64,000 bases of DNA. Origin: a virus. This document shows, piece after piece, positions 20,421-61,522 of the stretch. The stretch is from positions 21,547 through 85,546 of the IMG/VR virus record IMGVR_UViG_3300032093_000068, one strand, 5' to 3'. The notes beneath the pieces are model-generated. The model did no database searches, was not told the DNA's origin, and saw only the letters and a list, made by a program, of their open reading frames with translations. Position numbers and translations under genes: made by a program. Position 1 is the stretch's first letter. Every line of letters starts with the position of its first letter.

Positions 20421-22307
20421 TTAAACAAATTTACTAGCCCATTGTTTTGGAAGAGTTGGTCCTGCCGCATTAATAAGTGGAGGAATTACTATTTCATTCT
20501 TACCGTTTGCCCATAATTCATTAGCTTGCCCTTTTAATTCGGCGTAATTAGCGACAAGTCCTAAATTAGGGCTACCATCTGGTAATGGACCTGTTGGTAA
20601 TCCCAATTTTTGTAATTCAGAAATACTATTGACAAATGCTCTTTCTACTGAATAACCTGGCAATAACGGCGCCGCAAATAACAAAGGGGCCGGAATTAAA
20701 TTACCTCCAATACCGGGTAATTTAAGTAAAGCAAGTATTTGATCTAAAATATTTTTACACTGTCTCCAGTCTTGTATTATTTTAATTATCTGAATTAAAA
20801 TAGCCACCAAATTCAAAATCATCGCATATTTCTTTAAAGATTTTTCTCTTGATAAATCAGATGCAATACTTCTTATTAAAGTAACAATTTCTCTTTTGAC
20901 TATTTTGAATAATTCTCTTATAAATAAACCTCCAATTTTTGAAACAATACCAACAAAAAAACCTTTATATTTTTTGGTAAATTCTTCCATTGAATTAATA
21001 TCTACTTCTGCTTGTAATGATTTTAACATTATCATAAATCCTAAAAATATTTTAGGTCCAAATATTGAAGTTATTAATGATATTGGGAGTTTAAATATTG
21101 CAGAAAAATCGAAACTTAATTTGAAAGAAGCGTTAAGTTGTAATCCAAATCCTGAATTTTCTGTAAATGTGTTTGTTATATTATCAAACGCCGAAATTAA
21201 TTCATTATCATTATCCTCATCTATAAAATTTAATTGATCTATGGCTTCTACGATTTGTAATGAATTCACAGGAAATTTAACATTATCACAACCTTCAAAT
21301 TCAACCGCTCTATTTTGTATATTATATACTTCTTGATCAATCGCTAATAAATCAACCTCATTAAATTCAAAAAAATCATCATCTAAATTGTCTAATTCAC
21401 CTGTTTTGGCAACACCGCTAACATCAATTTCGTTTCTCGTGTCAAAACATAAACCAAGAACTCTAGCCATTATTCTTCCGAATTTAGAATTATCTTTTGT
21501 ACCATTAACACCTAAATTTAATTCTGCCGAAATACAACCCGTTATTGCGTTCATAAGTTCGGAAATTACCACATTAAATTCAACAAAAGACATTCTTTTG
21601 TAATAATCTCTTAAAAAAAAAACAATTTTATTTGGTGCGTTTTGTCTATTGAACAAAACTACTTTGAAAAAGTCGCCTGGTTGTCCTTGGTCGTCTTGCT
21701 GTTCGTAAGATATGTCAAATAAATCTTGACCTGAGGCTCCTTTAAATTTATAAGGAAGTCCTTGATCAAGTATTCTTTGACGTAATTGACGGTTCATTGG
21801 ATATTTAAAATCACCAGTGTTAAGGTTTTTTTGTCTTTCGTATTTTGTTTTTCCTACTTTTGATTCGGGATCTATTTTAAGGTTACCTTTAAAATCTACG
21901 TTTTTTACCTTAATGTATAGTGTTCGATTGCCGTCATATGTTTGTTGTTGTGAGCAACCAAGTAATTTAACTATTTCATCAACGACTATTTGTTCAATAT
22001 CTGGTTTTATTGTTTTGATTGATTTTAATAAAACTCCTTTTAAGTATTTTGTTGAAGATAAACCGCTACCCCTATTCGATAAAATAAGTTTTATTAATTG
22101 TTGGAATTGACCCTCAACTTCTTTTTGCAATCTGTTTTTTTGATCTTCAATACTTTTTAAACCGTTTGCGATGCCACTATTAGCAGGTTCCGTTGAGCTA
22201 TTCGCTTTTGCGGACAAGGATTTTATGTCTCCTTTTATTTGGCGAAATGTTTTTAAACTGGATATTTGTGTTTGCGCGTCGCCATAACCTTTTGCTAAAT
22301 CTGCCAT
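20421..22307 (-). CDS. Large virion-type protein with hydrophobic C-terminal half
   Basis: This 628-residue protein of unknown family has a helical, Gln/Lys-rich N-terminus (about 1-75). A mixed region follows (SYEQQDDQGQPGDFFKVVLF; DYYKRMSFVEFNVVISELM). Its C-terminal half carries several hydrophobic stretches (FSAIFKLPISLITSIFG; KIFLGFMIMLKSLQ; YAMILNLVAILIQIIKII; NLIPAPLLFAAPLLPGY). Several could be membrane-active or buried helices. In a tail/baseplate neighbourhood this could be a hub, tape-measure-like or ejection protein, but no specific evidence separates these. It starts 1 base after the stop of the 120-residue gene upstream. Confidence 0.65.
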   Translation of the reverse strand: MADLAKGYGDAQTQISSLKTFRQIKGDIKSLSAKANSSTEPANSGIANGLKSIEDQKNRLQKEVEGQFQQLIKLILSNRGSGLSSTKYLKGVLLKSIKTIKPDIEQIVVDEIVKLLGCSQQQTYDGNRTLYIKVKNVDFKGNLKIDPESKVGKTKYERQKNLNTGDFKYPMNRQLRQRILDQGLPYKFKGASGQDLFDISYEQQDDQGQPGDFFKVVLFNRQNAPNKIVFFLRDYYKRMSFVEFNVVISELMNAITGCISAELNLGVNGTKDNSKFGRIMARVLGLCFDTRNEIDVSGVAKTGELDNLDDDFFEFNEVDLLAIDQEVYNIQNRAVEFEGCDNVKFPVNSLQIVEAIDQLNFIDEDNDNELISAFDNITNTFTENSGFGLQLNASFKLSFDFSAIFKLPISLITSIFGPKIFLGFMIMLKSLQAEVDINSMEEFTKKYKGFFVGIVSKIGGLFIRELFKIVKREIVTLIRSIASDLSREKSLKKYAMILNLVAILIQIIKIIQDWRQCKNILDQILALLKLPGIGGNLIPAPLLFAAPLLPGYSVERAFVNSISELQKLGLPTGPLPDGSPNLGLVANYAELKGQANELWANGKNEIVIPPLINAAGPTLPKQWASKFV

Positions 22308-41110: not shown

Positions 41111-41808
41111 TTTAATTCTTTAAATTTTTTTATAACATCAATTAATACTTTGACATCTTTTTCGCAGTATTCTGATATTTCTTTAAGTTTATTTTCTTTC
41201 CAAAATGCATGATGAACTTTTTTTCCCGTTACCTCACCATCTTTTGGTGATTCAACTCCCATGCTTGCGCACATTAGATCAAGTGATCCGATTGCGGTAT
41301 AAGCGCCAAATTGCCATAATTCCTTTGTGTCAATTGCTTTTATTTCCCAAGGTTTTGTATCATAATTTGGTAGAATCGCCGGTGGCATGATTCCATTTAT
41401 AACCATTCGTTTTGATAACATCGGAATATCAAAGTTCTTTAAGTTATGACCACATAAATAAAAACCCAATTTTCCGCATCTATCCAATAATTTTTGCGTT
41501 TCCTTTAAAACAACAGATTCGTCATGAGATGAAAATGTTTGAGATTTTATTTCTCCTTTGTCCGTTACAAAAGATACGCTAACGCAAATAACTTTTGCAA
41601 ATTCGGGCACAAGCGCCGATCTTAACGAAAAGACATAATCAAATGATTGTCCTTGATCCTCAGGAAACCTTTTTTGAAACCAATCAAAATAGTTTGAGAA
41701 TTGTTCTGCCAATCTTGGATACATTTCCTGCAATTGACTGTAATCGTATGTTATTCCAACTGTTTCAATATCAAGAAACAGTATTTTGGATAAGGGAATA
41801 TTGATCAT
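41107..41808 (-). CDS. DEDD-type 3'-5' exonuclease
   Basis: This ribonuclease-H-fold exonuclease of the DnaQ superfamily carries motif I ILFLDIETVGITY (Asp and Glu), motif II YLCGHNLKNFDIPML (Asp), and motif III ISEYCEKDVKVLID with Tyr-x3-Asp, so the DEDDy type. I prefer ATG 41808 (MINIPLSK) with an A-rich leader to a TTG at 41826. Its start still overlaps the 3' end of the glycosyltransferase by 38 bases. The protein may proofread or process nucleic acid ends. It resembles uncharacterised exonucleases of large phages. The extra block between motifs I and II is longer than in DnaQ. Confidence 0.85.
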   Translation of the reverse strand: MINIPLSKILFLDIETVGITYDYSQLQEMYPRLAEQFSNYFDWFQKRFPEDQGQSFDYVFSLRSALVPEFAKVICVSVSFVTDKGEIKSQTFSSHDESVVLKETQKLLDRCGKLGFYLCGHNLKNFDIPMLSKRMVINGIMPPAILPNYDTKPWEIKAIDTKELWQFGAYTAIGSLDLMCASMGVESPKDGEVTGKKVHHAFWKENKLKEISEYCEKDVKVLIDVIKKFKELK

Positions 41809-42967
41809 TATGTTTTTTATTAACAATTTCTTTATACCACTGAGCTCTCTGTTCGGTTACTTTTCTAAGGTCGTATTTGTCTTTAACGGTCTCATATAAA
41901 CGATTTCCCATATCTTCAATCATCGCCGGATTATCAACAAGTTTTTTGATGTTTTTAACCCAATCACTATGATTTCTTGAATCTGAAACAAGAAGCGCAT
42001 TTCCATCAACAAACTGACCATTTTTAATCGCGTGTTTCAAATCAATTGTGTAAGGCCCAACCTCAGATGCGATTAATGCCTTTTTATAAAATCCTGCTTC
42101 AATAACTTTTAATTGAGACTTAACTTGATTAAATAAGTGATTTTTGATCGGAGCGATTGATATATCAAACTTGGAATAATTTCTCGCATATTGTGTGACA
42201 TGCTTTGTCCATACCCTTCTGTAATTTTCATTAATTTCATTTTCAAAAGGTTCTTCAACAAATTTTTCCAAAAATTCTTTATATTCGGGCGATATGATTT
42301 GATAATTATTTGTGAATATCTGTTCATATTTTACCCAAACCGTTTCATGTGGTTTGATTGGTCGCTGTTTTTGTTCTCCCGTTTGTTTATTAATTTCCGT
42401 GATTGTTCCTCTAATATCAAAACCACATAACACGTATTGCAACTTGTCTTGCAATTGTGATAATTTTGACACCATTCCATCTAGCAATGCTAAATCGTGA
42501 AGGTGTGATGATCCTCCGAGCCAACCAACCCTGATTTTATCAGATTTTTCTGTCGGTTCGGTAAATTGTGGTTCATTTGGATCAATTGCGTTTGGAAATA
42601 CAACCACATTTCTATTTATTCGTTTTATCTCGTCAGCAAATATTGATGTTGTGGTTGTAACAAAATCAGGGTGTCTTAAATTTTCCACAATTTTTTCGTT
42701 AATTTTATTTTGACGAATAATATCGTGGATTGGATGTTCTTTTCCTGGCATCCAATAATCATCAATATCAACTATGGTTACAATCCCTAATGATTTTAAC
42801 ATCCTAATTATATTAGGAGTGCTTTCATAATTGTTTGCTATCACTCTATGGATATGAACAATTTGGTATTGTTTCCAAAAATTGATGTCATTTATTTTTG
42901 GTTCATAATCAATATCCACATGAAAATCTTCAGGATATAAATTTTGTAACATTACATGGGGGTCCAC
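41771..42967 (-). CDS. GT-B glycosyltransferase body, N-terminus cut off by an in-frame TAA
   Basis: The 398-residue frame begins at a GTG at 42967 (VDPHVMLQNLYPEDF). Family motifs follow: VHIHRVIANNYEST, IVDIDDYWMPGKEHP, RVGWLGGSSHLHDLALLDG, and NDRA-like downstream elements (KALIASEVGPYTIDL). The frame continues upstream past an in-frame TAA at 42985-42983 to a natural-looking N-terminus from ATG 43069 with the expected first Rossmann strand. Without that segment the donor-domain fold would miss its first strand. So this gene is either interrupted, or expressed by readthrough or ribosome hopping, or restarted at GTG. It overlaps the exonuclease gene at its 3' end. A homing endonuclease gene is adjacent. 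Confidence 0.75.
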   Translation of the reverse strand: MDPHVMLQNLYPEDFHVDIDYEPKINDINFWKQYQIVHIHRVIANNYESTPNIIRMLKSLGIVTIVDIDDYWMPGKEHPIHDIIRQNKINEKIVENLRHPDFVTTTTSIFADEIKRINRNVVVFPNAIDPNEPQFTEPTEKSDKIRVGWLGGSSHLHDLALLDGMVSKLSQLQDKLQYVLCGFDIRGTITEINKQTGEQKQRPIKPHETVWVKYEQIFTNNYQIISPEYKEFLEKFVEEPFENEINENYRRVWTKHVTQYARNYSKFDISIAPIKNHLFNQVKSQLKVIEAGFYKKALIASEVGPYTIDLKHAIKNGQFVDGNALLVSDSRNHSDWVKNIKKLVDNPAMIEDMGNRLYETVKDKYDLRKVTEQRAQWYKEIVNKKHNDQYSLIQNTVS

Positions 42968-42982
42968 AGATCTAAATTTACC

Positions 42983-43069
42983 TTAACCTACCCCTGTCCG
43001 GTCAGATGCGAGAACTAATACCCGAATCTTTTCACGACCGTTCAGGGGCGAAATTGTTTTTTGAGTCAT
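42983..43069 (-). pseudogene. Detached N-terminal segment of the glycosyltransferase
   Basis: From ATG 43069 the frame reads MTQKTISPLNGREKIRVLVL continuing to ASDRTGVG, then TAA, then GKFRSVDPHVML in the same frame. The strand IRVLVLAS followed by TGVGKFRS looks like the start of a GT-B donor domain. The stop is flanked by GGT codons on both sides (GGT TAA GGT AAA), so removing six bases restores a smooth reading. I mark it as a fragment because normal decoding would release a 28-residue peptide. Confidence 0.6.
42991..43048 (-). other. Inverted repeat in the interrupted glycosyltransferase leader
   Basis: On the coding strand CCCCTG-AAC-GGTC (43048-43036) can pair with GACC-GGA-CAGGGG (43003-42991), giving six plus four base pairs around a symmetric 3x3 internal loop. 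The hairpin ends two bases before the GGT TAA GGT site. It is GC-rich relative to the surrounding AT-rich sequence. RNA function is inference. Confidence 0.55.
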
Positions 43070-43955
43070 ATTTATTTATAATTTTTTTAATTATGTTTGG
43101 ATCCGATTTCAATTCACTTTCCCAAACTATTTCCAAATTATAACCATAACTCCTGATTAATTCAAGTTTGTTATTATCATATTCCCAAATATCTTTAGCG
43201 TACTTGCCCTTTTTTTGATTATAGTAATTTTCATCATATTTAATTGGATTGCAATGCCAATAATCCCCATTATATTCTATTATTAAATTTAACAATGGTA
43301 TATAAATATCACATACTTTACTATCAACTCTGAATGAACTTATAACTTCAATATTTAACGATCTTAAAAAAAACACGATTTCTTCTTCTTTTTTTGAGAT
43401 TATTGTTGATTTTATTTTGCCGTTCCTACGAGTTTGTTTCATTTGTTCTGATATAACATTTTTATCTAAAATACCATTATCCCAATTGGATCTCATAATA
43501 TTTTTACTCATATCACGATATTCTTTTTTCTTCATATGGTTTTCATTTCCCATATATTTGCCGGATCTATTATCTGACATTTTCTTTAAACTTTCTTTAG
43601 TATGTTTTTTACCATAAAAAGGATTACCTTTACCTTCTTGTAACTTTAAAGAACATGGTTTGCATAAATAACCGCCATTTAATGCATTGATGTAATTTCT
43701 ACACGCAATTGTTCTTTCTTTTGATTTGGTTTCAATATCTTCTTTACATTTAGGGCATTTACGAGTTATATAATAATTTTCCCCATCAAATTTAATATCT
43801 AACTTTTGACATCTATCTCGTTTTCTAATTATCCCCTCCTCATTTAACACCTTTAGTATTGTAGGTTTGGATAGTCCAACAATTTTAACAATTTCTAAAC
43901 TACTTTTACCCTTCTTATATTCGCTAATAATCTTTTTTCTAATGTTTGCGTCCAT
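43032..43955 (-). CDS. Free-standing homing endonuclease (NUMOD3 plus Vsr/EDxHD-like nuclease)
   Basis: This is a selfish endonuclease of 307 residues. Domains in order: an N-terminal helix-turn-helix (SLEIVKIVGLSKPTILKVLN), a zinc ribbon (CPKCKED ... CRN ... CKPC), a NUMOD3 DNA-binding motif (GKGNPFYGKKHTKESLKKMS), and a C-terminal nuclease with VDSKVCDIYIPLLNLIIEYN and GDYWHCNP, then a late KLELIRSYGYNLEIVWESEL. The last region fits Vsr-like homing nucleases of the EDxHD type. It heads its own motif at 43961-43968. Its coding end overlaps the first 38 bases of the glycosyltransferase leader, so insertion happened at that gene's 5' edge. No intron is evident. Confidence 0.85.
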   Translation of the reverse strand: MDANIRKKIISEYKKGKSSLEIVKIVGLSKPTILKVLNEEGIIRKRDRCQKLDIKFDGENYYITRKCPKCKEDIETKSKERTIACRNYINALNGGYLCKPCSLKLQEGKGNPFYGKKHTKESLKKMSDNRSGKYMGNENHMKKKEYRDMSKNIMRSNWDNGILDKNVISEQMKQTRRNGKIKSTIISKKEEEIVFFLRSLNIEVISSFRVDSKVCDIYIPLLNLIIEYNGDYWHCNPIKYDENYYNQKKGKYAKDIWEYDNNKLELIRSYGYNLEIVWESELKSDPNIIKKIINKYDSKNNFAPERS

Positions 43956-46666: not shown

Positions 46667-49600
46667 ATGGCTCAACAAAACATTAATCAATATACATATA
46701 AGAAATTTTATGTTAGCCCCAATTTTTTGAGTTTAACCGATATATCATTAGCGTCAGACGAAATTGATTATAATCAGGAGGTTGTATTTTCGCCGTATTT
46801 GATAGCTCAAACTTATGGAAATCGTTTGCCATTTTATTTTGATTTAGATTCAACAGGTACAACTCAGCAACTGATTTTAGATTATGGTAGTTATAACACC
46901 GATAATATAATTGTTTCTGAAAATTATTATAATCCTGATAATTTAGATTTAAGCTGTTTTTCATCACAAACTTCTTGTGATATCGGACTTACTGGTATTG
47001 ATAATGGTCTTGTTACAGGAATGACAGGTCAGTCAATAACATTTACAAACGGACTTTTAGGTGACCTACAAAAATTTGATAGATTAAGTTTTGATAGACG
47101 TTTAAAATTATTTCAAGTTACCGGTTATACAAACCAAAACATTCAGTTTTCAGGAATTTCAGGTCAAACTTTATATGAAATAGTTTCAAAAACAGGTGCA
47201 ACCGAAGGATATTATCAAGAATTATACGGAGGATTTTATCAAGGTTTTTATAAACTTTTTGGTTATGACTACGATATATTTCCAAGTAGAACAAACAAGG
47301 GTTGGGCAGTTGAAATGGTTTTAAAACCAAGGTTATTTAACGAATATTCCCCCTCTTCAGGTCAAACTACATTAAACCAAATTTATCCTCAAAATAAAAA
47401 TACATTTTTTTATTTTGGTACTAGGGCTGAAAATAAATTTGGTCATCATGCAGATGGTCACCCAAATTCAGATAGCGGTTATACAAGGGTAACAGAAGGA
47501 CTTCAAACTTGTTTAAAAACTTGTGCTTGTTCAGATACAGGCACAACAAATTCAAGATGCGTTGATGTGTATGAGCCGTCAGGAGAAACTATTGTGCATA
47601 ATGTTAATTGCGACTGCGGATGTAATAATGTAACAATTGAGGGGTCTCCTGATAAGGATCCGATATTTGATTCAATGTCAAATGCTATTTCTTTTAAATT
47701 GTGCGGAGATGACCCTACTAATCCAAAAATTGGTGTAAGAATTTTAAGATTTACCGGTGATTGCCAAACAACAGGTTCTTGTGAAACATCAGGGCTTACT
47801 TATGTAACAGGTTATACAATAGATGAACATTGCTCCGAAGATGGAATTTATGATTATTGTTTAACCAAAAATTCTGCATATACAACATCAGAACATTGGT
47901 TTTTGGTTGATATTGTTTGGGAACGTTACACTTATTTAGATAATTGCGATTTATATTACAGAGGCGGTTTAGGTGACATTACAAAATTAGTTTACATTGA
48001 TTCGTTAGCAAATAATTCTGTAAATTTAATTAAACCTCCGATTACTCATGAAAATATAACACCTGACCAAATTGAGATTGTTAGATTAAACGACAAATGG
48101 TTACAAGATAAACATTATCGTAATGGTAAATTAAAAATTTACGTTAATGGTAAGATATTTTATCAGGTTGAAAATGTTGAGGAGATTATACCACGAGGAC
48201 TTGACACTTATAAAGAAAGGCAAGTTGGGGTTCCTTTTAATATATCTTGGGGTGGGGGTACATTAGGACTACGTGAAAATCTAACTTTCTCGGCTTGCCC
48301 AACAGGAACAACAAATGTTTATATTCAAGATCCTGAATTATTTCCAAATAACGTATTAAGTGCAACTTCCTTATCATCACTTACAACAAACATACTAATT
48401 GAACCTAATTTTGCCGGAACTTTCGAGGGGGGTATTTCTCAATTTAGGATGTATGTTTCCCCTTTATCTGCTCCTGAAGTAAAACACAATTTTGATATTT
48501 TACAATCAAAATTTAATTTATTTAATCCTGATTGTCCAAACTGCGGATCGACTTGTTTAGAAAATGATTTTGTTTACAGTATTTTACCAACACCAACACC
48601 ATCAAATACTCCAACGGTTACGCCTACTACAACTATAACAAAAACTCCTACTGTAACCCCAAATCCTACAATTACTCCAACAACAACTCAAACTATTCCA
48701 TCAACACCAACTGCAACACCATCTGTTACTCCAAGTATAACAATAACAAGAACTCCTGCCAAAACTCCATTTGCGACACAAACTCCAACAAGAACTGTTA
48801 CACCTACAAATACAGAAACTCCAACTCAAACTGTAACGCCAACATCCACAATTACCCCTACTGTAACTACAACAAATACGAGAACTCAAACTCCTACTCC
48901 AACTATAACTCCGACTGAAACTGTTACACCAACACCAACTGTTACCTCAACTAAAACAAATACTCCAACAAGAACAGTTACACCAACAAATACTGTAACT
49001 CCGACAACTACAAAAACTGTTACTCCTACAAATACAATAACGCCTACTACAACAATTACTCAAACTCCAACAAGAACTCCCGCCAAAACTCCATTTGCGA
49101 CACAAACTCCTACTCGTACATCAACTCCTACAAATACAATAACTCCTACAAGTACAATAACTCCAACAAATACAAAAACTCCAACTGTTACACCAACAAA
49201 TACAAGAACGCAAACTCCTACTTCTACTGTTACACCAACAAATACAAGAACTCAAACTCCTACTATAACTGATACTCCAACAAATACCCCAACAAAAACT
49301 GTTACTCCTACAAATACTATAACTCCGACAACTACAAAAACTGTTACTCCTACAAATACTGTAACTCCAAATCCTGCAACACCAACCGTAACTCCTACAC
49401 CAACTAGAACTCCGGCAAAAACTCCATTTCCAACTCAAACTCCTACAAACACAACAACACCAACAAACACAACAACACCAACAAATACTATTACTACAAC
49501 TCCAACTAAAACTACTACTCAAACGCCAACAAATACAAGAACGCAAACTCCTACTTCTACGCAAACCCCTACCGTTACAATAACTCCAACTAATACGCAA

Positions 49601-52387
49601 ACAAGAACCCAAACTCCTACAATTACAAATACGCAAACGCCAACTAACACTACAACACCAACACCGACAAGAACTGTAACACCAACAAACACTATTACAC
49701 CTACAAATACTGTTACTATAACACCAACTAGAACTCCGGCAAAAGCTCCATTTCCAACTCAAACTCCTACTCGTACATCAACTCCTACAAATACAATAAC
49801 GCCTACCGTTACAATAACTCCAACAAATACAAAAACTCCAACTGTTACACCAACAAATACTAGAACGCAAACTCCAACGCAAACAACAACTGCTACTCAA
49901 ACAACAACTGTAACTCCAACTATAACTGATACTCCGACAAATACACCAACAAGAACTGTAACACCTACAAATACTATAACTCCGACAACTACAAAAACTG
50001 TTACTCCTACAAATACTGTAACTCCAAATCCTGCGACACCAACAGTAACTCCAACGCAAACAAGAACTCCTGCCAAAACTCCATTTCCAACTCAAACTCC
50101 AACAAGAACTGTCACTCCAACAATTACAGATACTCCAACAAATACACCAACAAGAACTGTAACGCCTACAAATACTGTAACTCCGACAACTACAAAAACT
50201 CCAACTGTTACACCAACAAATACAAGAACACAAACCCCAACAACAACTCAAACTCCAACAAACACACCAACAGTTACCTCAACAGTTACCACTTCAATAA
50301 CTCCAACTCAAACAAAAACACCAACAAAAACTCCGACCGTTACTCCTACAAATACAAGAACTCAAACCCCGACAAATACTGTAACATCTACAAGTAGCGT
50401 AACCCCAACATCAACAAAAACGCCAACTGTTACCCCTACAAATACAAGAACTCAAACTCCGACTTCTACCATAACTGCAACTCCAACAAGAACGCAAACC
50501 CCTACCGTTACAATAACTCCAACTAATACGCAAACAAGAACTGTAACACCTACAAATACTGTAACACCTACTACGACAATTACTCCAACACCAACAAATA
50601 CTGTAACACCTACTACGACAATTACTCCGACTCCAACAAGAACTCCGGCAAAAACTCCATTCCCTACTCAAACACCAACAAGAACTGTAACACCTACAAA
50701 TACTGTAACTCCGACATCAACAATCACATCTACTCCAACTAAAACAATTACTCAAACCCCGACAAACACAAGAACGCAAACGCCAACCTCAACTCAAACT
50801 CCAACCACAACATTAACATTAACAAATACATCAACACCAACAAGAACAGTTACTCAAACTCCATCAAACACAATAACTCAAACACCAACAAGAACAGTTA
50901 CTCCGACTAATACTGTAACGCCAACATCATCTATAACAGTAACTCCAACTAGAACTCCGGCAAAAACTCCATTTGCAACACAAACTCCTACAAAAACGCC
51001 AACCCCGACAAACAGTGTTACACCTACAAATACAGTTACACCTACTATCACAAGAACTGTTACTCCGACAAGAACTGTTACTCCGACAAATTCTATAACG
51101 CCAACAAATACCCCAACTAATACATTAACCCCGACAAACACTCCAACTACAACTTTAACCCCAACTGTAACCCCAAGTCAAAGGTCTTCAATATTGGCAG
51201 ATGTATTGTGTAACTGTAGTGGAAATACAGATAGAAATATTTATGTGTTCTATGACGGTTCAGGATCATATACAGATAGTTTATTACAAGATGTTTCATT
51301 AAGTGTGAGAATGTGGTATAGTGGATTGACCTCAACAAGTGGATGGACAGGTAATTTATATGAAATGATATTGTGGGATGAAAGGTGGGTATCTTGGCCG
51401 ATTTATCCGATTATTGGTACTTTATCAGGTGCAACGATCGGTGCTAACTACATAGATAACGGTTCGTTATTATATAGTGGTATAACAAACGATACAGCAG
51501 TTAAACAAGCAATTAACAACGGGTGGGACTTTAACAACCCTGGCAACCCAGATCCATATGGTTCATCAGGTGTTCCGTTTAATCACGTCGCATTAATTGA
51601 TTTTAGCACAGCGGCCAACTTTACACCTGAAACAGATAGTTTTGTTGCTATTTGTGTAATTAACGAATCTTCGCCTGTTTATACGCAAACCGGATCAACA
51701 TTAACTACCGGTAATACAACTCAATTACCATCTCAGTTTTATATTAATAATTCAGGAGTTCAAAAAGATTATAACAATTATTTAACTGCTTGGTCTTACT
51801 TTACAAATTCATTAGGTAAAAAAGTTAATAATTTATTATTTGTTAATCCTAATGGTAATTTAGTGGAAGGATTCCAAACTGTGGAAGCTCAATCATTCCA
51901 GTTTATTTTGGAAGCGTTAGCATTAATTGAAGGACAAACAAGGACTGCGTCATATTTTTCACAATACAACTTTAACGGTGGGGTATGGCCAAATATCAAT
52001 TCTGAATTAGGAACTGATTGGACTTTTGTAACATTACAAACTCAAAATCCATTTACCGGTTATACGTCATTAACGGGTTATACGTCTTTAAATTCATTGA
52101 ACAAAAATGGAGCTGGACTTAGAAACTTTGATTGGGCTGCCGACCCCACTGTAACTGATTTTAGTGCATCTACAATTCAGAATTCATTTAACAAGTTTTT
52201 CAGCGGAGATAGTAGAGATTGTTACTATACTGACTCCAACTTATCGGGACTTACAATCGGTCAGGTAGTCAAATTATCAGGAGAGACAGGATGCTGGCAG
52301 TATTTAGGTGTTCAAGAAACTGCGGTTACTAAAACACCACTCGCGTGGACAGGTTCCACATATACAAATTGCACGACTTGCACATAA
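46667..52387 (+). CDS. Giant virion adhesin/fibre protein 1 with mucin-like Thr/Pro region
   Basis: The protein has 1906 residues in three zones. Residues 1-640 are globular with a LamG-like sandwich ([53 protein letters not shown]) and a Cys cluster (KTCACSDTG ... CDCGCNN). Residues about 641-1505 consist almost only of Thr, Pro and variable residues in TPTxTPT units, with seven copies of a phrase RTPAKTPF(A/P)TQTPT. Residues about 1506-1906 are globular; [19 protein letters not shown] has a DxSxS pattern that could be a von Willebrand A metal site, and the end has CxxC. There is no signal peptide. It is likely a long flexible receptor-binding or surface fibre. Family is not named. Confidence 0.75.
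48588..51180 (+). repeat. Thr/Pro-coding low-complexity repeat with a higher-order period
   Basis: About 2.6 kb of TPT-type codons (ACA/ACT/ACC/ACG with CCA/CCT/CCG/CCC mixed freely). The phrase encoding RTPAKTPF recurs with its Lys codon at 48761, 49085, 49418, 49742, 50075, 50651 and 50963, that is at 324, 333, 324, 333, 576 and 312 base steps. Synonymous codons differ between copies. Confidence 0.9.
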
Positions 52388-52392
52388 TTCAA

Positions 52393-52611
52393 ATGGGACA
52401 AACAATAGTAATTTCAAGTAACAATTTTAGTGGGGATCAAGCGAATATTATTTTCACCCCTAGTAATTCATCAGAATCTTATGGATTAGGAATACAAACA
52501 TTACCTTATACATTTGATACCAGTATTATAGATAATAACTTAAATGCAACTGGAACTTATTCTATTAATTTAATTAATTCTAGTTGCTCTTATATTCTAG
52601 TAGTAAATTGA
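52393..52611 (+). CDS. Small hypothetical structural protein, 72 aa
   Basis: ATG 52393 lies 6 bases after the giant fibre stop and is better than an upstream in-frame TTG-type start inside that gene. The product (MGQTIVISSNNFSGDQANI at the start, ending in a Ser-Ser-Cys segment) is polar and beta-rich. It looks like a small accessory domain of the fibre, perhaps an assembly or cap protein. No family was recognised. The following 97-base gap holds a promoter-like motif. Confidence 0.6.
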   Translation: MGQTIVISSNNFSGDQANIIFTPSNSSESYGLGIQTLPYTFDTSIIDNNLNATGTYSINLINSSCSYILVVN

Positions 52612-52697
52612 TAATCAAAAAAAAAATCTAAGTAAATAGAAAAATTTTTTATTCGTATTTCTCAATATCTAATTATCTTTAAAACTACCTTTTTGTG

Positions 52698-52705
52698 TAT
52701 TTATC
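52698..52705 (+). promoter_or_regulatory. Late-promoter-like motif TGTATTTATC close to a start codon
   Basis: The motif ends 3 bases before ATG 52709. This matches the spacing at 22675 on the other strand and is much shorter than elsewhere, so a leaderless or near-leaderless start is implied if it is the -10 element. Confidence 0.35.
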
Positions 52706-52708
52706 GAT

Positions 52709-55700
52709 ATGTGTAAATTAATAGTTAATGGTCTATCTTATGATTGCGGGCCTTATACTATAATAATATGTGATAGCAATGGAAATAACTGTTTCATAGT
52801 TATTATTACTCCTAATCCAGGAGGAGGGGGGACTATAACCTATCCTGACGGAACCACTGATACTTATGATAACGATGATATCGTTATAGATCTACCGGAT
52901 TTATTTGATAACGAAGATGAGATAATCATTAAAATTATAAATGATGATGATGAAGAAGTTACTACCAATACTGGTTTAGGGCCTAATACAATAATAACTA
53001 AATTAACTCCAACCCCCACCCCTACTCCGACTGTAACTCCTACATTCACGCCCACAGTTACACAAACAGTTCCATTAACACCAACTCCAACGGTAACCAA
53101 AACGCCAACCACAACACCTACACCGACAGTTACAAATCCAATACCAAATTTGGCGTTCAGTTCATGTTGTACAAACGATGTTTTTTCATTAAAAGAAGAA
53201 ACACAATTTATTACAACATTAGATCCGTCAAAAACGTATTATATAGTAACAACAGAATTTACAGGTTGTGTAACAATAATAAGTCAAAGACCTAACACAT
53301 TTTACGAATTTATTTCCATAAGTTCAAGCTATAACGATTGTATTGATTGTTTAAATGCAACAACAGGTAATAATTTTTGTCCAACGCCAACACCAACGCC
53401 AACTATGACAATAACCCCTACAAGACCTATTAGGTCTTTTAAGGATTGTTGTGATAACATATATTTTGGTTTAACTGAGGAGTCAGAATTACTTTACTCC
53501 TTAGATCTTACAAAATCTTATTACATAGTAACTGACGGATATTCAGGTTGTACTACGGTGGTTTTACAAACAGCATCAACTGTTTATAATTTCATATCAA
53601 TCTCGTCTCCATATGTAGATTGTGATACTTGTAGGGTCGCAGAGTTTGGAATTGTTTGTCCTACACCCACTCCAACAGTAACTCCGACAAATACAGTTAC
53701 ACCGACAGTCACTCCGACAAATACTGTAACTCCAACAATTACGCCAACCGTAACACCAACTTTTGTTCCAAGTTTTTGTTATCAGTTAAGTTCATGTACA
53801 ACAAATGATGTATATAGTGGTTGTAGCACAACTGCGATTACAACAAATGTAGTTTATAATTTAAATATTAATGTCTCTGCAGGAACAAGAAACACAAAAG
53901 TTCAAACAGGATCGGGATTTAATAACACCACATTCGGAGTTGATTATCAATCTGATGGAAAAATTTTGGTATCAGGAAATTTTTCTCAATATAATAACCA
54001 ACCCACAACATATGAAATTATAAGGTTAAATTCTAATGGGCAAATAGATAATACATTTTCATATGGGGGAATTTCTTATATCTATATAAATGAAGTATTA
54101 GAGCAGCCCGATGGAAAGATATTAGTTGGTTTAGGTCAATTAAATGGTTCGTCAGGGAATTTGGTTCAGAGATTAAATACTGATGGAACAGTTGATGGTG
54201 GGTTTATTAACCCCACATTTACAACCGGAGGTGCTGTTACGAAATTAAAATTACAACCTGATAACAAAATTTTAGTTGCTGGAACATTTGAAAGTCCAAA
54301 CGGTTTAGGTTTTAACAAACTTGTCAGATTAGACACTGATGGTTCTATTGATCCAACTTTTGGAAACGGAGGATTTTTACCAAATTTAGGTTCAGAGGGA
54401 GTTTACGATATTGACATACAAAGTGACGGGTCAATTATCTGTGTGGGTTCATTTACAGAGTACGATGTAATTCCTTCAAATAGAATTGTTTCATTAGAAC
54501 CTGATGGCGATTATAATCCTTTGTTTAATTATGGAACGGGTTTTAACGGAAATGTTTTTTCTGTTACAGTTTTAAATGATGATTCAATTTTATTAGGTGG
54601 TGAATTTACAGAATATAGTGGTTTTCAGTCAAATAGAATTATAAAATTAACATCTACAGGTAATGTTGATACTTCATTTAACGTTGGGTCAGGTTTTAAT
54701 AGTGGGGTTGTATATGATATAGAAAAAGATGGATTTGGAAACTTTATAATTGTTGGAAGTTTTACGCAATATAAAAATACGGTAGTTAATGGAATTGTAA
54801 AAGTTGATATTAATGGAAATATTGTATCAGGTTTTCAGACTGGTATCGGTTTTAATAATGATGTTTATAAAATATCACTTAAAGATGATTTTTCTGAGTT
54901 TTCAGTTGTAGGTCCTTTTACTACATATAAAGGTTGTATTAATAACCGTTTTGTTTCTATAATAAATTCAGGTACAAATGTTACTGACTGTTTTAGAGTT
55001 ATAAGTAGCGGATCTTGCAATTGTTGCGACAATAAAATTACATCAATTAGTGTTCCTCATATAAATTGTAATGATTGTTTAGGTATTACTCCAACTCCTA
55101 CTGTAACTCCTACATTTACTCCAACAAACACGGTTACTCCGACAAACACTCCGTCATTTACTCCTACTAAAACTGTAACTAGAACTAATAACCCAACAAG
55201 GACACCGACTAAAACACCAACGGCCACACCAACACAAACAAAAAATGTGTTAGTTTTTAGTTCTTGCTGTGGAGAAAATATTTTTATATTTACCGATGCA
55301 AATATAACAATTGGATTAACTGTCGGTAAAACATACTACGTTGAAACGTTACAATCTAATGGTTATACAGGATGTACAACATTAACATACGGTCTACCAA
55401 AAAATAATTATACTTTTCCCCAACTTATAGATGAACAAATAGATTGTAATACATGTATAACAAATAATCAAGGTGGAGTATGTCCGACACCAAGTCCAAC
55501 ACCAACAAATACTGTAACACCTACAACAACTACGTTACCTTATGCTTTTTCATCGTGCTGCGGAAATGAAATTATACAATTAATTGACGAACCAGATTAT
55601 GCTGAATCGATATATGATGCATCAATTTTAAATGGATATACATACATTTTGGTTACAAATGTATTTTCAGGTTGTGTTTCTGTGGTAAGAGCGGTTCCTA

Positions 55701-58700
55701 CCTCATTTTATGACTTTGAAAGTATAACAACAATTAATGGTGATTGTCAAGTATGTTTAGGAGGTCCAATATGTCCTACACCAAGTCCAACTCCTACAAA
55801 TACAGTAACACCAACAAATACTGTAACTCCAACTATTACTCCTACAAATACGGTAACTCCAACTATAACTCCGACTAATACGGCAACACCTACCATTACA
55901 TCTACTAACACGCCAACCGAAACACCAACAAATACAGTTACTCCAACTAATACGCCTACAAATACTATAACACCAACCGTTACAAAAACTCCATTTGCGT
56001 CGCCAAATTCGACAAGAACTCCAACGACAACTCCAACTACAACTCCAACCAATACCGCAACACCTACCGTTACACCAACAGAAACGCCAACAAATACTGT
56101 TACTCCAACAAATACAATTTCATTAACACCAACCAATACAGTAACTCCGACCAATACATCATCAATACCTGCAACACCAACACCTACTACAACTAACACA
56201 CAGACAACCACAGTAACACCAACTGTTACTGTTACTAAGACTGTAACATCAACACCGTCAGAAACTCCAACAAACACTCCTACACCAACAAGGACATATA
56301 CACCAGCGGTTACACCTACTAATACAAGGACATCAACTCCAACTCAAACACCTACTAATACTGTAACACCGACAAATACCGTAACACAAACTGTCACACC
56401 AACTAATACCTTAACACCAACAAGTACATTAACTAATACTCCAACAAATACAGTAACACCAACAAATACTGTAACATCAACAGTTACTAAAACCATAACG
56501 CCTACTATCACTCCTACAGTTACTCCGACAAGAACAGTTACACCTACAAGAACTCCTGATGGAACGCCATTAGCGACAGAAACGCCAACTAAAACCCAAA
56601 CTCCAACAAATACTGAAACACCGACAAATACTCCAACTAACACATTAACCCCAACTAATACAGTTACACCAACTCCAACAAGAACAACAACTGAAACGCC
56701 AACAAACACACCGACTAATACATCAACAATTACATTAACACCAACAAGTTCATTAACGAGTACTCCTACAGTTACACCTACAAGAACAGTTACACCTACA
56801 AGAACTCCTGACGGGACGCCATTATCAACTGAAACTCCTACTAAAACACCTACAAACACCCCAACAAATACTGTAACGCCAACAAATACTAGAACCGAAA
56901 CTCCTACGAATACTGTAACACCAACCGTTACTGCAACTCTAACTCCTACAATTACTGAATCACCAACTAATACTCCAACAAATACTGTAACACCAACTAC
57001 GACTGTAAGTATTTCTTTAAGTCCGACTAATACTTCTACAAATACAGCAACTCCAACTCTAACACCTACTGTTACCCCAACAGTTACACCTACAAGAACA
57101 GTTACACCTACAAGAACTCCTGATGGAACGCCATTAGCGACAGAAACGCCAACTAAAACCCAAACTCCAACAAATACTGAAACGCCAACTAATACGCCTA
57201 CAAATACAGTAACACCAACAAATACTGTAACTCCTACAAATACAAGAACTCAAACACCTACCTCAACGCCAACAGTTACTCCGACAGTAACACCAACAGT
57301 TACTCAAACACCATCCTCAATTTCTAATTGTATTGATTGTGAAATGTCAGGAATAACTTACACTTCAGGATCAACACCTACAGCTACTACAACGCCAACA
57401 GTTACTCCGACAGTAACACCAACAAATACTGTAACACAAACTCCGACAAATACTCCAACGCCAACAGTTACTCCGACTAATACATCTAGTAATACTCAAA
57501 CACCTACCCCAACGCCAACAAATACTATAACGCCAACAAATACAAGCACAGTTACTTCAACAAATACTCCAACAAATACAGAAGGATTAACTCCTACTCC
57601 AACGCCAACAAATACTATAACGCCAACAAATACAAGCACAGTTACTTCAACAAATACTCCAACAAATACAGAAGGATTAACTCCTACTCCAACGCCAACA
57701 AATACTCCAACATCAGAAACTCCTACTCCAACGCCTACAAATACTGTTACTCCAACTGTAACACCTACCAATACTTCTACTGTAACACAAACACCTACCA
57801 ATACTCCAACATCAGAAACTCCTACTCCGACTAATACATCTAGTAATACTCAAACACCTACCCCAACGCCAACAGTTACTCCGACAGTAACACCAACAAA
57901 TACAAGTACTCCTACTAATACTGTAACTCAAACTCCAACAAATACTGTTACACCAACTTTAACACAAACTCCGACAAATACCCCAACATCAGCACTTGTA
58001 GTCCCTGAATGCGCTGTTTTACTACAATGGGAATCTAACGACATTTATTATTACGATGTTAATACAAACAATAAAATCTCACTTAATTTTTACACAGGCT
58101 CCACAGGTTTAGATATCGCTCATACTCAAAATAAGTTTTGGAATTACGATAGTTCATTTTTATATGAATACAATATTACGTTAAATCCTTGGAGTTACTC
58201 TTTCAATAGAAGTATTAGTACCTCTTTATCTTTGGGTAATGGTTTATGTTCTAAAGACAATACAGGTACAAGACTAATCTCTTCATTATACAGAATTTCA
58301 GGTAATGGTGAAAGAATAGTGGAATTAGAAATTACCGGATCATCCGCGAATATTATTTATCAATTTGATATGTTACCTGATCGTTTTGTTGCGGGTGATA
58401 TAGTTTATACAACAACAGGTAAATTGTTGGTAACCAATTTAGAATATACATTAAGTTTCCAAGGTAACTATATAACTCAATATGATTACGCGACAGGAAC
58501 AATGGAGATTGATGTTCTCATATCTCCAACCATAGATAATCCATATGGATTGTTTGAAGATAATGGTGTCATATACATCGGAGATTTTGACGGTGATATC
58601 TATTCTATAGACACCAACTATCCATACACACTTACTAGTATTAATAATAGTGGAGTTGCGATCGCTGGAGCTTCTCAAGTACCGAGTTGTATCAATACTC

Positions 58701-61522
58701 ATTTAAATCCTCAAACAACACTAACACCAACACCAACACCAACATTAACACCAACATTAACACCGACTCAAACTGTAACTCCAACTGTTACTACAACCGT
58801 AACTCCGACAAATACTATAACAGTAACTCAAACTGTAACACCAACATTAACCACAACTGTAACACCGACCAATACACAAACTCCAACAAATACAACAACT
58901 CCAACACCAAGTATTACAGAGTATCCACCAGTTGTTGCATATTTTAGCTCCTGTTGTTCTAATTTTGAATTCAGAGTATTTTCAATTCCATTTATTGAAG
59001 CACCGGTTGTCGGAAATGTTTATTATGTAGAAGCGTTAGGTTTTAGTGGATGTGCAACAGCTATAAACTCAAGTTTAACTTCTAATTCATACCAATATCA
59101 GACACTAACATTATCTACAGTTTGTGAAACCTGTACGACTACATATATTTGTCCAACACCAACACCAACTCCAACCGCCACATCAACACCAACGCCAACT
59201 GTAACACCTACTCAAACATTAACGCCAACTTTAACGGTAACATCAACACAAACTCAAACTCCTACAAATACTGTAACGCCAACACCTACTAAAACGTCTA
59301 TAGTGTGTAATTGTTTTACCTTTTTCAATACAGGAATAACAGGATCTATCAGTGTATCATATTACGATTGCGATCTTAATTTACAAAATATCTCAATTCC
59401 ATATGGAAGTTATTCGGCGGTATGTGTAAGTAATAGTGCATATACCGCATCAACATCTGTTGTTTATTTCAACGGAAATTGTTCTTCAGGGTGTCCAACA
59501 ATAAATAGAAATGAGTGTGACGTATTCGTATTAGATTGGAATAACAGGTTAATATATAATTTTGATCCATCTAATGATACGGCAATACCGTTACCTATTG
59601 ATCTTCAGTCAAGTCAAATAGGACATGATATAGCAACTTTTGGAAATTATCTTTGGATATTAGCTCGTTATTTAAGCGGTAGTACCACTATAACAAGAAT
59701 TAAAGAATATACATTTGTAAATAGTCCGTTTAGTGCAACCTTTTCTAGATTTATTGATCTACCTAGTCAGACGGTTTTTGTTAATAGTCAACATCAGGGG
59801 TTAGCGGCAATAAATAGCACGACTTTATTAACATCATCGGGATCAAGTCAAAATCTAATTGTGTCAGTTGATATAACAAACCCAATTGCGGTTTTAACTC
59901 CTTTATTTAATTTGCCACCGACAAGATCATTAAGGGGTGATTTAATCTATACTAATACCTCAAAAATAATCGCCCATATTTATGACGTACCAATACCACC
60001 TTTAAGTGCGTCATCATATTATATGCAATTTGATTTTTTTGGTAACTTAGAAGTAGAAATACCCGTCGGAAATGTGTTTCAAGGATGGTCTTTTTATTCT
60101 TATAATAATGAATTATACTCTGCAATATGTTCATTAACGTCACGGACACGAAGGAAATATAACTTAACATCACCATATTCTTTCACATCCGAACCAAATA
60201 TGCCGATTGTAAATGCAGGAATGGCTCAGCCGCCATCTTGTATTAATATAAATTTTATACCGGTAACACCAACACCGACACCTACTCAAACTGTTACTCC
60301 GACAATAACACCAACAAATACTGTAACGCCGACAAATATTATTGAAAAATCATTTAGCGGATGTCCATGTAGTAATGGAGTACCACCTGGTACATTCAAC
60401 TTCACAGGTTTCGGTATGACATTGAACACCATTTACAGTTTAGATCCAAATGGTGTATATTATTTTAATGCTTCAGGGGTTGATGGTTGTTTTGTAATAG
60501 TTAATCAACCGGCACAATACTATCCTATAAGTTTAAAGTCAGCAAGAATTGATTATGTTGATTGTCCAACGTGTTGCAACGACGTTCCAACACCTACTCC
60601 TACCGCGACACCTACGACAACACCAACCAATACTCAAACAACTACCGTTACAAGTTCCCTAACTCCTACAGTCACGGAAACTGTTACGCCAACTGTTACT
60701 GAAACACCAACATATACTCCATCACAAACAGTTACGATAACACCTACAAGCACGATTACACCTTCTCCAACAAACGAATGCTGTGGTTGTGATACAATAA
60801 ATGATGCGATATTACCTGGCGGTGAAAACATATACTTACAAGTTGGAAACGGATTGTATTTGAAATTTTTAGAACAATCACCTTTAATATCTCCATCACC
60901 AACACCTACAAACACACAAACACCATCTTTCACGCCTAGCCAAACAACAACTTATACGCCAAGTCAGACATTTACACCGACAAGAACAATAACACCAAGT
61001 CCTACATTAACAGTTAGTCCAACTACACCATTTAATGGAGAAGCAACTTTATTTTTAACGGGATGTACCACATATCAACAACTTGTGGTTAAATTAACAG
61101 GATTAACTATAAATCAATATAATCTATTATCATTACCATCAACAATTTACATTCCACAGTTGGATTGTTGTTTTGTGTTTGTTTCATTTGTAAACGCAAC
61201 CCCTGATTATGTTCTACCTTCAAGTGTCGTGTATAGTGGTTGTACGGAATGCATAACCGTTCAGTCACCAACCTGTATAATACCAAGTGGTTGTAGATGT
61301 ATAAACTTTGTTAATAATACTAATCAAACTTTTGGACTTGTTTATATTCCGTGCGATGATCCAAACTTCGCTACCTTTACCACAATACCGCCATTAATTA
61401 TAGGACAGCCTCTACCTGGATTCTGCTACTTACAAATACTATCAGTCACACTTCCAAATATACCTTATTTTATAGGAACAACAACTTGTTCAACGGATAC
61501 AGATTGTATAAGTGGTTTTTAA
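52709..61522 (+). CDS. Giant virion adhesin/fibre protein 2: alternating Cys-rich, propeller and mucin-like modules
   Basis: The protein has 2937 residues. A Cys-rich module of about 75-80 residues (SSCC or close, then GC, then DCxxC, then CP before a TPTPT linker) occurs at about 53150, 53428, 55248, 55540, 58933 and 60346, with weaker copies elsewhere. A seven-bladed-type propeller built of delta-60-like repeats ([45 protein letters not shown]) spans about 53880-54990. Two paralogous propeller-like domains lie at about 58003-58710 and 59510-60260. Thr/Pro-rich linkers fill the rest, the longest at about 55770-57990. There is no signal peptide. The modular layout suggests a multivalent host-surface or glycan binding fibre. 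Confidence 0.75.
57511..57690 (+). repeat. Perfect 90-bp tandem duplication
   Basis: Bases 57511-57600 and 57601-57690 are identical, beginning AACGCCAACAAATACTATAA, and encode the same 30 residues including an EGL phrase. Surrounding repeats vary at synonymous sites, so this copy is probably recent. Confidence 0.95.

Follow-up and report, generated by a model that had tools for sequence, protein, structure and literature searches.

The window analysed here is a 64,000-nt stretch of a viral record (IMG/VR IMGVR_UViG_3300032093_000068, positions 21,547 to 85,546). On its minus strand lies a glycosyltransferase gene with an in-frame stop codon between two Gly codons, and a homing endonuclease gene overlaps its start. 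Positions are those of the window, and the Gly codons are named for their proposed roles.

42983–43069, minus strand: leader ORF, ATG at 43069–43067, 28 codons (MTQKTISPLNGREKIRVLVLASDRTGVG), then TAA
43031–43069, minus strand: element-specific N-terminal extension of ~10–13 codons, supplying the 5′ arm of the hairpin
42990–43049, minus strand: leader RNA hairpin, its 3′ arm ending two bases before the take-off codon
42986–42988, minus strand: take-off Gly codon GGT
42983–42985, minus strand: in-frame stop TAA directly 3′ of take-off (TGA or TAG in other alleles)
42980–42982, minus strand: landing Gly codon GGT, followed by AAA (42979–42977) and then TTT
41774–42982, minus strand: glycosyltransferase body, GT-B fold, GT4-like, 403 aa, an intact ORF
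43032–43955, minus strand: free-standing homing endonuclease, 307 aa, with NUMOD3 and a Vsr/EDxHD-like C-terminal catalytic domain (NLIIEYNGDYWHCNP)

The first-pass annotation had read a split glycosyltransferase here, 28 codons from ATG 43069 to TAA at 42985–42983 and then GGT AAA in the same frame, and every coordinate checks. The hairpin it placed at 42991–43048, two bases from take-off, is present with 43048/42991 as its outermost Watson–Crick pair, to which a G–U pair (43049/42990) is added. The endonuclease gene was said to overlap the leader, and ORF 43955–43032 indeed shares 38 nt with it. In pairwise alignments, the landing Gly codon is the sole Gly codon of intact alleles. The body is without strand β1, which is encoded by the leader.

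Long ORFs in the window end with TAA (31), TGA (19), or TAG (3), and all three are normal stops in this genome. There is no tRNA gene within the window; 14 are found to its left, in the first 19 kb of the record (L290:87-2110), including tRNA-Gly(UCC), and no suppressor tRNA is among them. An Rfam scan of the region for introns or riboswitches returned nothing at gathering level. Elsewhere in the window, positions 46667–61522 hold two very large ORFs of 1906 and 2937 aa.

Interrupted and intact alleles

A scan of viral contigs with the glycosyltransferase body found 59 loci, ~30 of them at 66–74% identity. Some have Gly-stop-Gly at the identical place with another stop (GGC TGA GGT, for GGT TAA GGT in the window), and all of these have an endonuclease directly upstream. 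Most of the remaining relatives read SDxxGVGKFRS uninterrupted. That relatives without the endonuclease should have GVGKFRS uninterrupted had been predicted for a bypass, and they do. When the Gly-stop-Gly pattern was searched in the glycosyltransferase motif, all 24 contigs matched within the glycosyltransferase gene; the 6-nt pattern has three matches in bacterial genomes, none of them within a gene related to this one. A search with the body motif GKFRS..DPH, combined with the earlier loci, brought the total to 137 distinct sites, of which 27 are interrupted and 110 intact. These 27 interrupted alleles are the main set, and they become 30 distinct alleles in IMG/VR after adding an endonuclease scan and gapped-pattern matches. 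All are from metagenomic contigs, and we found no isolated phage carrying the window element.

The insert is always between the Gly and Lys codons of GVGKxRS, a motif in which G16, V17, G18, K19, R21, and S22 are invariant (34 aligned intact proteins) and whose length is constant across the 110 intact alleles. The gap from take-off to landing is 3 nt in 23 alleles, window included. It is 2 nt in L097 (GGT TA GGT), 8 nt in L281 (TAAATCAA) and L284 (TAACCAAA), 9 nt in L283 (TAACAAAAC), 10 nt in the L094 allele (TGAATTTAAA, seen in four contigs), 41 nt in L172, and 42 nt in L032. L097, L108, L172, L032, each gap-8/9 allele, and L132 (another gene, below) are known from single contigs. Across the gap, the frame changes in five alleles (L097, L281, L284, L094, and L172), and in all five a Gly-to-Gly hop would restore the GVGKxRS (GVGKF/YRS) of the intact protein.

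A stop directly follows the take-off codon in 28 of the 30 alleles, the exceptions being L032 (GCG) and L172 (GCT TAA). All 29 Gly take-off codons are GGY, compared with 70 of the 110 intact alleles. Take-off and landing codons are identical or Y-for-Y in most alleles, in which both are GGY and readable by one tRNA. Several alleles go from GGY to GGA, an imperfect match for tRNA-Gly(GCC), and such landings would need wobble-base tolerance or the phage tRNA-Gly(UCC). An outlier, L108 (L108:3450-3458), reads AGT (Ser) TAA GGC, where tRNA-Ser might land with a G–U first pair, or the allele may be degenerate.

Extension and hairpin accompany the gap in 27/27 interrupted and 0/110 intact alleles. 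The leader is 26–28 aa long in all 27 interrupted alleles; counted from the nearest ATG, it has 12–19 codons in intact alleles (Fisher p = 3e-29), none of which has the N-terminal extension (0/110). The 5′ arm of the hairpin consists of extension codons, and the 3′ arm of the gene’s own SDxxGV codons, ending at the take-off codon. For the 84 nt ending at take-off, the minimum free energy is −28.3 ± 2.2 kcal/mol in interrupted alleles (n = 27), compared with −11.7 ± 3.8 kcal/mol in intact alleles (n = 110; minimum −19.5).

Base pairs were counted in folds predicted allele by allele, and by distance from the take-off codon, because in the MAFFT leader alignment the 5′ arm is offset by one column from one stop class to another. 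Positions −3, −5, −6, and −15 are paired in 26/26 alleles. Two others covary: position −4 is CG in 21, TA in 3, UG in 1, and GC in 1, and position −7 is TA in 9, AT in 8, UG in 4, and GC in 3. The arms pair better with their own partners than with swapped ones (p < 5e-5). The window leader hairpin is more stable than all 300 synonymous-codon shuffles (z −5.3), as are 24 of the 26 leaders tested (median z −5.3). The gap-41/42 alleles, L172 and L032, have a second hairpin within the gap (CCCCCAC/GTGGGGG). Another small stem-loop (L094:3453-3474, CUGAAUUU...AAAUUUAG) is possible in the gap-10 allele, across the stop and landing region, recalling the take-off stem-loop of T4 gene 60.

The endonuclease and other phage genes

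The window endonuclease has a Pfam match to NUMOD3. The top PDB matches of its AlphaFold2 model are I-Bth0305I (3r3p; prob 1.00, TMt 0.75) and E. coli Vsr (1vsr), with E of 0.001–0.003 and prob 1.00 for the two; no sequence match to 3r3p was found. The model predicts a Vsr-like catalytic fold.

Upstream of 25/27 interrupted versus 13/110 intact alleles there is a homologue of the endonuclease or a remnant of its C-terminal part (p = 9e-16). On the endonuclease tree the bypass state takes 2 changes (7.9 when shuffled, 0/500 as low), and on the host-gene tree the interrupted versus intact state takes 21. Near-isogenic occupied and empty alleles (L093/L235, L067/L243, and L094/L179) differ by endonuclease, leader, and gap, and the divergent tract stops shortly beyond the landing codon. 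This co-conversion pattern is consistent with cleavage of the empty allele by the predicted endonuclease. In L032, L068, L078, L079, L083, and L172 the putative bypass is retained with the endonuclease mostly or wholly lost. Related endonucleases are also found upstream of the glycosyltransferase gene with no extension, hairpin, or gap (L096, L098-L107, and L109); in L096, GVG is altered to GCG.

Comparison of alleles shows a glycosyltransferase frame split at one fixed codon boundary, by an element that moves with the endonuclease. These observations are consistent with one mobile unit, whose gap and recoded leader would destroy the target site of a presumed cleavage.

The same design appears in two further genes. 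L118, L119, L300, and L376 have a bypass-type element before a 5′-3′ exonuclease gene (Pfam 5_3_exonuc_N), where the leader ends in VLIVDG and is followed by CTT TGA CTT (in L376 the landing codon is CTC), with a GCCGTCGAC/GTCGACGGC stem abutting the take-off codon. Intact exonuclease relatives, about 34 distinct alleles, read VLIIDGLN. A second glycosyltransferase, in L132, has LLLSDDL, CGA TAA CGA, and LTSGIATVS in succession, with a hairpin at z −7.1 (synonymous-codon shuffles); Microcystis phage Mel-JY01 and Flavobacterium phage immuto are uninterrupted at this site. The nearest endonuclease is one gene upstream in L132, inside a guaB gene apparently split by an intein.

That guaB (IMP dehydrogenase) is in two halves with a Vsr-like endonuclease between them (L132:2332-3893), a fractured-gene arrangement. 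Upstream of the exonuclease, L118:223-1942 contains an additional endonuclease-like ORF together with what looks like the C-terminal half of an intein (EVEDEHTYLANDRLNHN), and the L118 phage seems to carry several such elements. Other codon-stop-codon sites in the examined loci were mostly gene boundaries (AAA TAA AAA) or antisense readings lacking a strong hairpin next to the codon.

The proposed bypass and its alternatives

We propose that the ribosome translates the leader up to the take-off Gly codon, when the stop would enter the A site. The hairpin would re-form behind the ribosome and, alone or aided by the nascent peptide, cause the peptidyl-tRNA to let go. The mRNA would slide forward until the tRNA re-pairs with the Gly codon 2–42 nt downstream, and translation would therefore resume in the frame of that codon, yielding GVG-KFRS exactly. 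Two ORFs would give one protein across a non-coding gap, whatever the frame, and the predicted product matches that of intact relatives. In rewriting the endonuclease target, the element would confer immunity to self-cleavage while costing the host gene little; the logic is that proposed for T4 gene 60 and mobA.

It is highly probable, on comparative grounds, that the endonuclease gene, the hairpin-bearing leader extension, and the short non-coding gap are one mobile bypass element lodged in a conserved phage-gene motif. Most likely, they belong to a family of mobile elements for minimal programmed translational bypass, which would conceal an endonuclease insertion within a vital motif. A minimal bypass like that of T4 gene 60, linked to a mobile endonuclease, was what the first-pass annotation had suggested, and the relatives strongly support it.

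The gene could instead be split or dead, with internal initiation yielding leader and body as separate products, or with the locus in decay. Split genes have precedents beside homing endonucleases, namely nrdA of Aeh1 and gene 43 of phage 25 (PMC2988022). Here, however, both halves of the glycosyltransferase are under strong purifying selection, as judged from codon substitutions: dN/dS of the last 15 leader codons is 0.126 in interrupted alleles and 0.113 in intact alleles, compared with about 0.6 for the extension, and the bodies of interrupted alleles are full-length ORFs. The predicted fold of an intact relative, L231, is GT-B (pLDDT 90.7), with β1 at residues 5–10 and the junction between G18 and K19, so that β1 and the invariant loop’s first half would be leader-encoded. 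Nor does the body have a conserved start. The GTG at 42967 is not conserved among relatives, several of which have no ATG/GTG/TTG across at least 60 body codons; in L004, L063, and L075 the first appears only at body codon 89–166, and therefore internal initiation cannot make the enzyme. Matched codons and a hairpin would serve no purpose in a split gene, and the element outlasts loss of the endonuclease in the alleles named above. We regard a split or dead gene as very unlikely.

Programmed readthrough, in which a tRNA decodes TAA/TGA in frame and adds one residue plus an extra Gly, had also been raised at first pass. It would suit most alleles, which are in frame (gaps 3, 9, and 42), but the five relatives that are out of frame across the junction disfavour it; stop readthrough is therefore no general answer. 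It would also have to act on three different stop codons with no suppressor tRNA among those of the phage, its product would be two residues longer in a motif without length variation, and it has no need of synonymous codons around the stop. Its chance is slim indeed.

Removal of the insert, either at the DNA level ahead of expression or from RNA by micro-splicing or editing, would likewise restore the exact protein in any frame, as the proposed bypass would. However, nothing in the analysis points to it, the region has no Rfam intron, and removal leaves the identity of the edge codons and the adjacent stop unexplained, while a hop explains both. We know of no mechanism for removing 5–6 nt in bacteria, and hold insert removal to be scarcely credible. 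An assembly or sequencing error, or a chance 6-bp near-duplication as the first reading had allowed, has a negligible probability despite the short gap and the few variants known from single contigs, because the arrangement recurs in 29 other alleles at the identical codon boundary, and it is excluded as well by the many samples, identical alleles in several assemblies, the tie of extension and hairpin to the gap, covariation in the hairpin, purifying selection acting on leader and body alike, and the two further genes.

With the bypass as the preferred reading, a wider proposition appears likely. Beyond introns, inteins, and intergenic hiding, phage homing endonucleases would occupy conserved motifs through portable ribosome-hop elements, each with hairpin, take-off, stop, and landing (Gly, Leu, or Arg codons; gaps of 2–42 nt in any frame). 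The elements would travel with the endonuclease, persist as independent bypasses once it is lost, and include the first natural in-frame stop-hops.

Comparison with known systems

To our knowledge, T4 gene 60 was for decades nearly the sole well-studied bacterial bypass. In the present family, which spans at least three host genes, gap length, frame, stop, landing codon, and hairpin all vary naturally; with matched empty alleles at hand, rules of take-off and landing can therefore be read from evolution and are directly testable. It supports the idea that bypass elements originate as devices for homing endonuclease immunity or concealment. Gene callers and pseudogene filters overlook such proteins.

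Bypassing in T4 gene 60 involves matched GGA codons, a stop after take-off, 5′ and take-off stem-loops, and the nascent peptide (PMC11194080, PMC5009743), and it is associated with an endonuclease insertion, the insert possibly protecting against cleavage (PMC5009743, PMC11194080). The window element likewise has matched Gly codons, a stop right after take-off, a 5′ mRNA stem-loop, and an upstream free-standing homing endonuclease, and the gap-41/42 alleles share a second hairpin, inside the gap. On the other hand, the gap is 2–42 nt and mostly 3 nt instead of the 50 nt bypassed in gene 60, the hairpin abuts take-off, and the leader has 26–28 codons instead of 46. There are many alleles, in at least three genes, using Gly, Leu, and Arg codons. 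The KKYK nascent-peptide signal of gene 60 is in no leader listed. The element would work like the gene 60 bypass in its simplest form, with hops as short as five or six bases, but common descent with gene 60 or mobA is not indicated, because the host gene differs and the predicted endonuclease fold is that of I-Bth0305I/Vsr (Vsr/EDxHD-like), not HNH.

Closer in size are the synthetic ‘stop-hops’ of Weiss et al. (1987), +5 and +6 hops in which 9 nt encode one amino acid (PMC5009743). Matched codons flank the stop in both cases, but those were laboratory constructs, whereas the present elements are natural and recurrent and have a conserved hairpin. No natural occurrence of an in-frame stop-hop was known to a 2016 review (PMC5009743), and we found no later report of such elements in a literature search that left subscription papers and preprints mostly out of reach. 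The terminase gene of Streptomyces phage Hau3 has a likely short bypass, linked to UUA decoding (PMC5009743); it too is a phage gene with a short suspected bypass, but not endonuclease-linked.

The byp elements of Magnusiomyces capitatus mitochondria are short mobile inserts that are bypassed, with mismatched landing codons tolerated (PMC5009743). The present elements resemble them in being short mobile inserts within coding sequence with, in some alleles, mismatched landing codons, but byp elements are mitochondrial, occur in many genes, and are reported to be independent of mRNA context, whereas those described here interrupt genes of phages and come with a 5′ hairpin and an endonuclease next to them. 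Finally, as with endonuclease-bearing introns, inteins, and fractured genes, a homing endonuclease is accommodated in a conserved motif and the host protein would be rescued; the rescue here would take place during translation, the element having no RNA or protein splicing domain.
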